A model generated the notes under the pieces. The model was not told the origin of the DNA and searched no databases. It saw only the letters and a list, made by a program, of their open reading frames with translations. Source: Planctomycetota bacterium (GTDB taxonomy: Bacteria > Planctomycetota > Planctomycetia > Gemmatales > Gemmataceae). From it: a stretch of DNA of 36,650 bases. This document shows, piece after piece, positions 2,986 through 8,014 of this stretch (positions within the stretch are counted from its first letter, which is position 1; each line of letters starts with the position of its first letter). Where the stretch lies: the NCBI GenBank assembly GCA_016191165.1, contig JACPPF010000064.1, positions 1 to 36,650 on the forward strand, read 5' to 3'. The position numbers and the translations under genes were made by a program.

Positions 2986-3180
2986 AACCATCCTTTTCTT
3001 TGCCTTCAACCGGTAGAGCCCCACGTCGAGCGCCGCCAGGCGGTTTTGGACACCTCTCGCTTTGGACCTCTCCGATCCTAATCGGTAGCCGCATCGTTTT
3101 GCAATTGCTAATTGTCAATTCCCCACAATCCGCTTAAACTTGATCCATTGACACACCCCAGTCTCGCCAGGAATATCCCC

Positions 3181-4122
3181 ATGAACCGTTTCGCAGGAGC
3201 GTTGTTCGTTTGGCTGTTCGCCGCCCTTCTTGCGGATGCCCAGCCCGCGAAAAAAGGAACCGCCGTGGATACCACGTATCTTCGCACGCTGGCGCAGACG
3301 CGCAGTTTTCAGCTTGGCCGGCCCGTTCGCCCCGTGGTGACACCGGACAACAAGGCCGTGCTTTTCCTGCGTTCCGAGGCGCGCTCGGCAAAGCTGAGCC
3401 TGTTTGAATTTGACATCGCCACGGGCAAGTCACGCGAGCTCTTGACGCCGGCCCAGGTGCTCAAGGGTGCGGAGGAAAAGCTCTCACCCGAGGAAAAAGC
3501 GGCCCGCGAACGCATGCGGGTCAGCGTCGGCGGGTTCACGAAGTTTCAACTCAACGACACCGGCTCACTCATCCTCCTCAGCCTCTCCGGCCGATTGTAC
3601 ACCGTTGTGCGCGCCACGAACAAGGTCACCGAACTGCCGACCGGCAAGGGCTTCCTGCTCGATCCCAAGTTCTCCCCTGATGGCAAGAAGGTTTCCTACG
3701 TTCGCGATCACGATATCTACGTCCTGGATCTCGCCACGCAAAAGGAAGCACGCGTCACCATCGGCGGCACCGCCTTGACGCCGCATGGCGTCGCCGAGTT
3801 CGTCGCCCAGGAGGAAATGGGTCGTTTCACCGGATACTGGTGGTCGCCCGACAGCACGCAGATCGCGTATCAAGAAACCGATCACAAGGATGTCGAGGTC
3901 TGGCACGTCGCCGATCCGATTCGACCCGAAAGCAGACCGCAGCCGTTCTACTATCCGCGTCCCGGCAAGAAGAACGCGGGGGTGAAGTTGGGGGTCGTCA
4001 CCATCCCGTCGCCGTCCAAGGGCGGTGCGGGCGGTGCGGGCGGTGCTGGCGGTGCGGGCGGTGCGGGCGGTGCGGGCGGTGCGGGCGGTGCGGGCGGTGC
4101 GGGCGGTGCGGGCGGTGCGGGA
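3181..4122 (+). pseudogene. S9 family (DPP4-like) serine peptidase, N-terminal beta-propeller part; frame broken at tandem repeat
   Basis: Begins with a signal peptide (MNRFAGALFVWLFAALLADAQ) at an ATG preceded by AGGA about 8 nt upstream. The following 290 residues match the DPP4 N-terminal beta-propeller: repeated SPDGKKVSYVRDHDIYVLDL-type blades, QEEMGRFTGYWWSPDS, and YYPRPGKKNAGVKLGV. The frame then enters a run of Gly-Gly-Ala codons (4024-4122). Past the run this frame stays open to 4935 but encodes only shadow sequence; the authentic peptidase sequence continues in the +1-shifted frame (next entry). From memory of the family, about 35 residues of propeller expected here are absent and the repeat sits in their place. 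It could be a real frameshift or a sequencing/assembly error in the repeat. Confidence 0.7.
4024..4122 (+). repeat. 9-bp tandem repeat (GGTGCGGGC, 11 units)
   Basis: Eleven head-to-tail copies of GGTGCGGGC; the third unit is GGTGCTGGC and the last ends in A. In the upstream frame it encodes Gly-Ala-Gly triplets, in the downstream peptidase frame Val-Arg-Ala. The unit length is a multiple of three, so copy-number change alone cannot explain the frame change across it; a 1-nt loss or 2-nt gain in or beside it is required. Confidence 0.95.
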
Positions 4123-5389
4123 GCTGGCAGCCGACTTGAAGACGGGAAAGACCACGCTCCTCCTGGCCGAGAAGAGCTCTACCTGGGTGAATCTGCGTCA
4201 AGAGGTCCCGCGCTGGCTCCCCAAGGGGGACGGGTTCCTGTGGGTCAGCGAAAAGGACGACGTGCCACGTCTGGAACTTCGCGCTCGCAATGGCAAGTTT
4301 CGCCGCGTCCTCATCAATGCCGATCTGGGATACCAGGGCCTGGTCAGCGTGAGCCAGGACGGCGAGGAAATTGTCGTCAACGCCAGCAAGGATCCAACCG
4401 CGTCGCAGCTTTTTCGCTATGCGATCAATCACCCGTTCAACGAAGCGGAGCCGATCACCAAGGAGTTGGGACTGCACGCCGGCGTCTGTTCGGGCGATCA
4501 CGCCATCCGGGTCATCACCAGTCGAACGATGAAGGGCATGCCGATCACGCGCGTCTACCGCAAGACGGGGACGCTCATCGGCGAACTTCCTTCCGTCGCG
4601 GAAAACCCGAAGACCGTCCCCGTCGTCGATTTGATCAAGGTCGGCGGCAAGGAGCGGATGTTCCACGCGGCCGTGGTGTTGCCACGCGATTACGACGTGA
4701 AAAAGAAATACCCCGTGATCGTCGACGTGTACGGCGGCCCGCACCACCTGCACGTCCTGGCTGCGCAGAACCGCTGGCTGCTCGATCAATGGTATGCCGA
4801 TCAAGGCTTCATCGTCGTCGCCATCGACGGCCGCGGCACCCCCGGCCGCGGGGCGGCGTGGGAGCGGGCCATTTATCAAAAATTCGGCTCCGTTCCGCTC
4901 GACGATCAGGTAGCCGGCTTGAAGAAACTTGCTGAAAAGTATCCGATGATGGACTTGAATCGCGTCGGCATCGACGGCTGGTCCTTCGGCGGCTACATGT
5001 CCGCCCTGGCGGTCATGCGCCGGCCGGATGTTTTTAAGGCCGGGGTCGCCGGCGCCCCGGTCTGCGACTGGTACGACTACGACACCCACTACACCGAGCG
5101 CTACCTCGGCGTTCCTCCCAAGGACGCCAAGGCGTATGACGAAGGTTCGCTGCTCACCTATGCCAAGGACCTCACGCGCCCGCTCATGATCCTGCATGGC
5201 ACCGCCGACGACAATGTCTATTTCCGTCATTCACTCAAGATCGTTGACGCGCTGTTTCGAGCCGGCAGGGATTTCGAGATGGTCCCGCTATCGGGGCTCA
5301 CGCACATGGTCCCCGATCCGCTCGTGATGGAACGCCTTCATGGCCGGATCGCGACGTTCTTTCAGCGGCAGCTGGGTCGCCCGGAGTAA
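4025..5389 (+). CDS. S9 family (DPP4-like) serine peptidase, C-terminal propeller end plus alpha/beta-hydrolase domain
   Basis: The open frame spans 4025-5389, but true homology begins at about 4121 (ELAADLKTGKTTLLL). It holds the end of the propeller (RWLPKGDGFLWVSE) and then a full prolyl-oligopeptidase catalytic domain from about 4660. The triad is visible: Ser in GWSFGGY (codon 4982-4984), Asp in GTADDNV (5207-5212) and His in GLTHMV (5303-5305). The oxyanion region VIVDVYGGPHH and the tail resemble planctomycete S9 peptidases. It has no start codon or ribosome binding site of its own, so it is the second half of the gene starting at 3181, one frame apart. If the break is real, the enzyme is not made as one chain. 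Confidence 0.75.
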   Translation: MRAVRAVLAVRAVRAVRAVRAVRAVRAVRAVRELAADLKTGKTTLLLAEKSSTWVNLRQEVPRWLPKGDGFLWVSEKDDVPRLELRARNGKFRRVLINADLGYQGLVSVSQDGEEIVVNASKDPTASQLFRYAINHPFNEAEPITKELGLHAGVCSGDHAIRVITSRTMKGMPITRVYRKTGTLIGELPSVAENPKTVPVVDLIKVGGKERMFHAAVVLPRDYDVKKKYPVIVDVYGGPHHLHVLAAQNRWLLDQWYADQGFIVVAIDGRGTPGRGAAWERAIYQKFGSVPLDDQVAGLKKLAEKYPMMDLNRVGIDGWSFGGYMSALAVMRRPDVFKAGVAGAPVCDWYDYDTHYTERYLGVPPKDAKAYDEGSLLTYAKDLTRPLMILHGTADDNVYFRHSLKIVDALFRAGRDFEMVPLSGLTHMVPDPLVMERLHGRIATFFQRQLGRPE

Positions 5390-5976: not shown

Positions 5977-6933
5977 ATGCCCCTCCCCACCACCCCGCAA
6001 AAGCCAACCAGCGTCCAACCCGGCGGCGGCACCTGCATGGCGATCGAACTTGCCTGGGCGCGGTTCCGCAAGTTCTGGCTGCGCAAGCTACGCCCCGGCT
6101 ACGTCCAGGCGATGCAGGCCAAACGCCAGGGTGAATGCGCCAACTGCCCGCACGACATCATCGATGCGCGCGATCTCAAATTCACGCGCAACGTGTGCGG
6201 CTACTCCTTCCGTCCGGAAGACGATCTTTACGCCTATCGCAACCGCCTCCCGTTTGCCCGGCACGGTTTTGCCGAGTTGTTGCTATTTTCCCTCGTTTAC
6301 CTGATTCTCGCTGGCGCCTGTGTTTGGGCAGGACTTGCGATCCACTGGCTGTTCTGGATTCTGGTGGCGGGGCTGTCGCTGGTCGAACTGGAAATCGTCA
6401 CGTTCTTTCGCGATCCGGAGCGAGTGATTCCCGCGGATACCGAATCTCTCGTCAGCCCCGCGGACGGGAGAGTCACGCACGTCGAGGAGGTCGAAGAGCC
6501 AGAGTTCGGCAAGGCGCTGCGGATCAGCATTTTCCTGTCGATCTTCAACGTCCACGTCAATCGTTGTCCATTCGACGTCGAGGTGGTGGACGTTCGTTAC
6601 TTTCCAGGCGAATACCTGGATGCCCGTAATTCAGACAGTGCCGTGCGAAACGAACAACTTTGGATCGACCTGCTCGATCCCGCCACGCGGCGACCCATGC
6701 GCGTCAAGCAAATCTCGGGGGCAATCGCGCGCCGAATCGTCTGCTGGCTGAAGCCGGGCGATCTGGTGAAAAAGGGGGAACGCATCGGCATGATCAAGCT
6801 TGGTTCGCGTACCGATTTGCTGATTCCATCGGGGAGCGCCGCGGAGGTATGCGTCAAGGTGGGAGACGCGGTAAAGGGGGGGGCCACGATCCTTTTGAAG
6901 TTTGCTCATAACCACCCGCCTACCAATTCCTAA
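5977..6933 (+). CDS. psd: Phosphatidylserine decarboxylase (archaeal/type-A-like)
   Basis: A 318-aa protein converting phosphatidylserine to phosphatidylethanolamine. The decarboxylase core occupies residues about 140-310, with FFRDPER (143-149), SPADGRV (160-166), SIFLSIFNVHVNRCP (184-198) and the self-cleavage site LGS at 275-277, where Ser277 would become the pyruvoyl group. Two hydrophobic segments at about 100-140 anchor it to the membrane. The first 95 residues are an extension with Cys54, Cys57 and Cys74 (CANC...VCGY), not part of the usual short enzyme; what it does is unknown. The start at 5977 lacks a clear ribosome binding site; ATG 6037 is an alternative. Confidence 0.88.
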   Translation: MPLPTTPQKPTSVQPGGGTCMAIELAWARFRKFWLRKLRPGYVQAMQAKRQGECANCPHDIIDARDLKFTRNVCGYSFRPEDDLYAYRNRLPFARHGFAELLLFSLVYLILAGACVWAGLAIHWLFWILVAGLSLVELEIVTFFRDPERVIPADTESLVSPADGRVTHVEEVEEPEFGKALRISIFLSIFNVHVNRCPFDVEVVDVRYFPGEYLDARNSDSAVRNEQLWIDLLDPATRRPMRVKQISGAIARRIVCWLKPGDLVKKGERIGMIKLGSRTDLLIPSGSAAEVCVKVGDAVKGGATILLKFAHNHPPTNS

Positions 6934-7195
6934 TAGGGTGTCGTCGCCCATCGGCTATCAGTTTCGCGCATTCAAAAGAAGGCTGAATTTTCAAACCCCA
7001 TTTGCCGATGGTGGTGAGAGGAAGTGATGTATTCCAAAGCGCGGGCATTTTGATCTAGCTTCTTGCCCGTGTCATCACGTATAGATAGTTTTCCGCCGGA
7101 AAAATGCTCCGGATTGCCGCCGGGCGTGACGCAACATCGGACGTTGCGAATTGGTAGGAACGCCGCCACGCCACCCAAGGGACTGGGGGTCCTGT

Positions 7196-8014
7196 ATGTC
7201 CTTGCCGTCAGGTTGCCGCATTCATCCAACCGCCGTGATTTCTCCGGAAGTCCAACTTGGCGAAAACGTCTCGGTCGGCGCCCACGTCATTATCGACGGC
7301 CAGGTTGAGATCGGCGATGACTGCGAATTGCGGCCTGGGGCCTACCTGTTCGGCCCGCTCAAGATGGGTCGGGCCAATCGAGTCTTCCCCGGCGCCATCC
7401 TGGGCGAAGCCCCGCAGCACCTCAAATACAACGACGAGCCAACCAGCGTGGAAATCGGCCACGGCAACATTTTTCGCGAACACGTGACCGTGCACCGTGG
7501 GACCACGCATTCCATGAAAACGGTCATCGGCAACGACAACTTCCTCATGGCCAACAGCCACGTTGCCCATGATTGCGTCCTGGGCAATCGTTGCGTCCTC
7601 GCCAACGGCGCCGTGATCGGCGGGCATTGCACGCTCGAGGACGGCGTCATCCTGTCGGGCAACTCGGCGGTTCATCAGTTCGTCCGCATTGGCCGCCTGG
7701 CCATGATCAGCGGCTGTTCCGCCACAAGCAAGGACGTGCCCCCCTTCATCCTTCAACAGGGGGTTAACGGAGTGGTCGGCATCAACGTCGTGGGCATGAA
7801 ACGCGCTGGCATGTCGCGCGATCAGATGAACAGCGTCCGCATTGCTTTCAAGATTCTCTTCCGCGAAGGTCTCGGCCTGCCCGCCGCCATGGCTCGCCTG
7901 GAGCGCGACCTCGGGCAGTACGACGCCGTTCAGGAAATGCTCACCTTCCTGCGCGGCTGCACCAATGGCATCAACTTCTTCCGCCACCGCTTCCACGAAG
8001 AAATGGCGGCCTGA
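7196..8014 (+). CDS. lpxA: Acyl-ACP--UDP-N-acetylglucosamine O-acyltransferase (LpxA)
   Basis: A 272-aa left-handed beta-helix acyltransferase, the first step of lipid A synthesis in the cytoplasm (transfer of a 3-hydroxyacyl chain from ACP to UDP-GlcNAc). Hexapeptide repeats run from residue about 8 to 190 (VISPEVQLGENVSVGAHVI, IGDDCELRPG). The LpxA-specific block is clear: ANSHVAHDCVLGNRCVLANG with the catalytic His of AHDC, then GNSAVHQFVRIG and SKDVPPF. The C-terminal helical domain (GINVVGMKRAGMSRDQ) also matches. The ATG at 7196 is preferred over an in-frame codon at 7151: it follows GGGGGT and gives the family-typical N-terminus. It stands alone here, without lpxD or fabZ next to it. 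Confidence 0.93.
   Translation: MSLPSGCRIHPTAVISPEVQLGENVSVGAHVIIDGQVEIGDDCELRPGAYLFGPLKMGRANRVFPGAILGEAPQHLKYNDEPTSVEIGHGNIFREHVTVHRGTTHSMKTVIGNDNFLMANSHVAHDCVLGNRCVLANGAVIGGHCTLEDGVILSGNSAVHQFVRIGRLAMISGCSATSKDVPPFILQQGVNGVVGINVVGMKRAGMSRDQMNSVRIAFKILFREGLGLPAAMARLERDLGQYDAVQEMLTFLRGCTNGINFFRHRFHEEMAA

Follow-up and report, generated by a model that had tools for sequence, protein, structure and literature searches.

A (Gly-Gly-Ala)11 repeat at a change of reading frame in a Gemmataceae DPP4-like peptidase gene

On balance, we consider that a Gemmataceae-type S9 DPP4-like peptidase gene has recently been broken by a local DNA rearrangement. The gene lies in a stretch of 36,650 nucleotides from a Planctomycetota genome assembly, hereafter the window. 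Within it, eleven copies of a 9-base unit stand where relatives have part of the β-propeller, and the reading frame changes by +1 at the same place. The first-pass annotation of this DNA had described two DPP4-like halves in different frames, with a Gly-Gly-Ala repeat replacing part of the propeller. Both descriptions are borne out here, the former by the DPPIV_N and Peptidase_S9 matches and the reading frames, the latter by Pfam and by alignment to the relative L040. The features are as follows.

3181..4020, + strand: 5′ half of the S9/DPP4-like peptidase gene (DPPIV_N positions 20–168; 78% identity to L040 residues 1–298, matched over 3112–4005)
4021..4119, + strand: 11 tandem copies of GGCGGTGCG, the third with a final T, encoding (Gly-Gly-Ala)11 in the upstream frame (Tandem Repeats Finder and unit-by-unit reading)
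4118..4135, + strand: right junction, CGG GAG CTG GCA GCC GAC, RELAAD in the downstream frame (relatives: RELLLLEAD or RDLALLAAD)
4124..5389, + strand: 3′ half (+1 frame), running from the end of the propeller through the alpha/beta-hydrolase domain, which carries GWSFGGY, to the stop (Peptidase_S9, E=8.7e-54; 81% identity to L040 residues 342–762)
3181..4935, + strand: open reading frame as written, from the list of reading frames and their translation, comprising the 5′ half, the (Gly-Gly-Ala)11 run and, out of frame, a long tail that ends at the first stop

The array and the two reading frames

The period-9 array is far beyond chance expectation. Its units lie head-to-tail over 99 nt, and all eleven are identical apart from the one change in copy 3. 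Tandem Repeats Finder reports a single array in the window (4020–4121, period 9, 11.3 copies, 97% matches), and the longest stretches of period-9 repetition there run to 65 and 18 bases, against a maximum of 7 elsewhere in the window. The upstream half starts with ATG at 3181, and its frame continues through the array and past it as the out-of-frame tail, to a stop at 4933–4935. The downstream half follows in the +1 frame, with its stop at 5387–5389; both frames are open across the array. Homology to relatives ceases at about 4005, where the five codons 4006–4020 (Pro-Ser-Pro-Ser-Lys) lead into the repeat, and the right end of the array passes into the gene through GCGGGAGCTGGCAGCC.

A search of 59 related genomes found a close orthologue in five of the six congeners, each a single open frame of 742–790 aa; the sixth (G004), without an orthologue, is 74% complete. 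Further single-frame orthologues are present in Gemmataceae and other planctomycete genomes. The closest relative is L009/L040, L040 being a Gemmataceae MAG from Lake Baikal. In frame 1 the match to L040 covers residues 1–298 and ends at 4005; in frame 2 it resumes at 4124 and covers residues 342–762. The intervening residues 299–341 (43 residues, 129 nt) stand as 118 nt in the window. A 9-base unit cannot by itself shift the frame, as had been pointed out in the first-pass annotation, and the exchange of 129 nt for 118 nt at the junctions explains the +1 shift without any frame change inside the array. Neighboring genes at 1163–2188, 2323–2892, 5977–6903 and 7187–8011 each match L040 in one frame, indicating that the region is otherwise soundly assembled. 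The nearest other relative in the same genome is a distant paralogue on contig C46, with 31% and 29% identity to the two halves.

The missing propeller segment

The propeller encoded in the window is incomplete. DPPIV_N (PF00930) is matched by the upstream half up to position 168 and by the downstream half at positions 205–339, so that 36 profile positions (169–204) have no match. Peptidase_S9 (PF00326) matches the downstream half only; thus, the propeller and hydrolase domains are divided between two frames here, whereas in relatives they share one open reading frame. A search of NCBIfam gave nothing above its cut-offs. The first-pass annotation had put the replaced stretch at about 35 residues, a figure close to the 36 Pfam positions and to the 43 residues measured by alignment to L040. 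By our own reading, counting the initial Gly-Gly-Ala and the final 'RE(L)' as retained would bring the missing number to about 34–37. The DNA encodes the catalytic Ser-Asp-His and the Glu-Glu motif: AQEEM lies in the upstream half, GWSFGGY, TADDN and GLTH lie in the downstream half, and these align with invariant columns.

Within the lost segment, six columns are invariant in 14 orthologues (W308, D309, Y315, Q332, R334 and Q336, in L009 numbering), and the segment is also conserved in solved DPP4 enzymes. Intact relatives match the bacterial DPP4-type S9 peptidases dipeptidyl aminopeptidase 4 (PDB 5YP1) and dipeptidyl peptidase IV (PDB 2ECF) over nearly their full length, this segment included, whereas the window copy has neither the segment nor a single frame. 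In the structure predicted for L009 by AlphaFold2 (mean pLDDT 78, about 81–94 around the array region), the array site falls at a predicted hairpin turn between strands 290–297 and 304–306, and the lost stretch would hold strands 304–306, 315–320 and 327–332, together with most of 338–344. Besides the frame shift, then, the window copy lacks a conserved piece of the β-propeller that comprises three predicted strands and some of a fourth. Given the absence of these residues and strands, restoration of the frame would not be expected to give a normal propeller.

This loss bears on two readings in which the gene retains a function. Variation is a classic property of tandem repeats, and copy-number differences inside isogenic populations have been reported for such repeats in M. 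tuberculosis promoters (PMC12817950). A phase-variable or strain-polymorphic locus, whose copy-number or junction variants turn the peptidase on and off, is nonetheless quite unlikely here, because every 9-base unit gained or lost adds or removes three whole codons, such that copy number cannot toggle the frame, and because slippage cannot bring back the lost residues. The array is also absent from all congeners. Programmed +1 ribosomal frameshifting in the repeat, to make a full-length, repeat-containing enzyme, would fit with the open frames across the array and the continued constraint on the downstream half, but we give it even less credence: a frameshifted product would still lack the six invariant residues, the three strands and most of the fourth. 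Moreover, the two-frame arrangement occurs in none of the full-gene orthologues found, and hence lacks the conservation that programmed frameshifting would lead one to look for. As to a downstream restart, the nearest candidate, TTG at 4136 with GGGAG upstream, is not convincing.

Under the reading that we favor, the gene would encode a truncated protein: the beginning of the propeller, then the Gly-Gly-Ala run, then a tail of unrelated sequence, with neither catalytic domain nor serine. It is therefore probable that the sampled strain has no functional copy of this gene and has lost the peptidase.

Origin of the repeat

In the alignment column at which the array starts, the sister-species orthologue L010 reads GAC GGC GGT GCG ACT, which contains a single, exact copy of the unit in the array's frame. 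In L012 and L013 the codons there are GGC GGG GCG, one base off; L009 has GGC GGC GGC; L011 lacks the unit. Exact rotations of the unit occur in only three places across the 14 orthologues (32 kb), L010's being at the array site, which makes a chance match at that site unlikely.

No second array was found anywhere in the organism's own 7.2-Mb genome; a check of other such tracts had been proposed in the first-pass annotation, and the array proved unique. Among 392 genomes sampled from the phylum, a three-copy form is present in one other (G376/L090), as a short C-rich repeat within a gene unrelated to this one. None of 94 other genomes of the family contains a degenerate coding pattern for (Gly-Gly-Ala)5. 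Copying from a dispersed repeat was dismissed on these grounds. A plasmid search with the junction gave no match, and among viral contigs the array sequence had one match, to an unrelated contig. Taken together, the comparisons suggest that the repeat was probably not imported and that native codons were amplified. We propose that Gly-Gly-Ala codons (GGC GGT GCG) in the hairpin loop may have been multiplied by replication slippage. We make no claim for a hairpin or quadruplex formed by the array itself: as single-stranded DNA it folds worse than its shuffles, and the quadruplex option of ViennaRNA changed nothing.

Bacterial repeat units of 6–9 nt have rarely been reported (PMC4692102). The array resembles slippage-derived bacterial coding minisatellites in having a short unit repeated head-to-tail almost perfectly and in frame with the probable source codons, but differs in the loss of some 40 codons and the change of frame. 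Gly-Gly-Ala-rich proteins of the PE_PGRS type contain the repeated tripeptide; here, in contrast, there is no PGRS domain or gene context, and a single array sits mid-enzyme.

Gene break or assembly error

If slippage produced the array, the adjoining 34–40 or so codons would have been lost out of frame in the same event or later, perhaps when the array was joined to a similar stretch of letters downstream (GCGGG/AG). The right end, RELAAD, would fit a join at GCGGG/AG with three more codons lost. Such a break would most likely be an ordinary recent gene-breaking mutation. Lineage-unique changes in the downstream half number 17 at the amino-acid level and 54 at third positions, versus 11 and 31 in L009, with no sign of relaxed selection in that half and no further lesions. 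As the downstream half is still constrained and otherwise intact, the break is recent, strain-specific or artefactual.

The last of these possibilities deserves serious weight, though we hold it to be clearly less probable than a real lesion. The organism's gene may be intact, and the right-hand join, or the whole replaced segment, may be a product of chimeric molecules or of misassembly in a GC-rich part of the metagenome. One assembly is the sole source of the lesion, and a single lesion in a gene under otherwise normal constraint looks like an error as much as a break. The draft is fragmented (183 contigs, some of only 1–2 kb), and tandem arrays stand at the ends of several contigs, implying that arrays trouble its assembly. 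The lengths gained and lost are also alike, a near-equal swap that simple expansion plus deletion does not predict, and the seed codons are exact in one of five congeners, the closest (L009) having GGC GGC GGC. On the other hand, no second array or gene copy is available as a misjoin partner, and the possible overlap at the join to downstream sequence is about 5 bases only. No displaced copy of the missing segment was found elsewhere in the genome, the search turning up only the distant paralogue on C46. The contig re-enters the same gene at a collinear point between intact flanking genes. A short-k-mer assembler is not expected to create tandem copies found in no read, and an array of 99 nt would fit within a typical read. 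The first-pass annotation had set real rearrangement and misassembly side by side with equal weight. Both alternatives stand, but the weights do not: the unit at the same codons in L010, the lack of anything similar in the genome to misjoin and the collinear return tilt the case toward a real event within the gene. In long-read MAGs from lakes, Planctomycetota carry unusually many structural variants, often associated with tandem repeats and mainly intergenic (PMC9426551), which makes a real event plausible.

The similarity of the two lengths could also be explained if a single replication error had swapped about 40 codons for a near-equal length of copies of the adjoining 9-base trio. We think this improbable; if true, such a template-slippage substitution, nearly conserving length, would be a kind of mutation not commonly described for bacterial genes. 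On the favored reading of a real lesion, the gene offers a clear small case in which a coding tandem repeat may arise from a codon trio visible in a sister species, and in which the repeat coincides with gene loss. It also carries a warning for annotation: without reads, this gene should be called neither two genes nor a frameshifted enzyme.

Finally, we note other repeats seen in the same genome in a tandem survey that covered 1.24 Mb. Arrays of 68–77 bp built on a palindromic element, GTAGGTCAGGC...GCCTGACCTAC, occur at L152 16532–16901, L133 18550–18778, L157 1–313 and L129 12827–13024. Two of the four are at contig ends (the start of C61 and the end of C33), and these arrays look like members of one dispersed repeat family, at which the assembly also breaks; another, different array begins contig C14 (L110 1–128). 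A Gly-rich, GGC-based array of 15/30 bp with 83–91% matches lies on C20 (L116 4516–4616). A perfect (TTCC)14.8 tetranucleotide repeat on C67 (L163 9324–9382) is a candidate hypervariable site.
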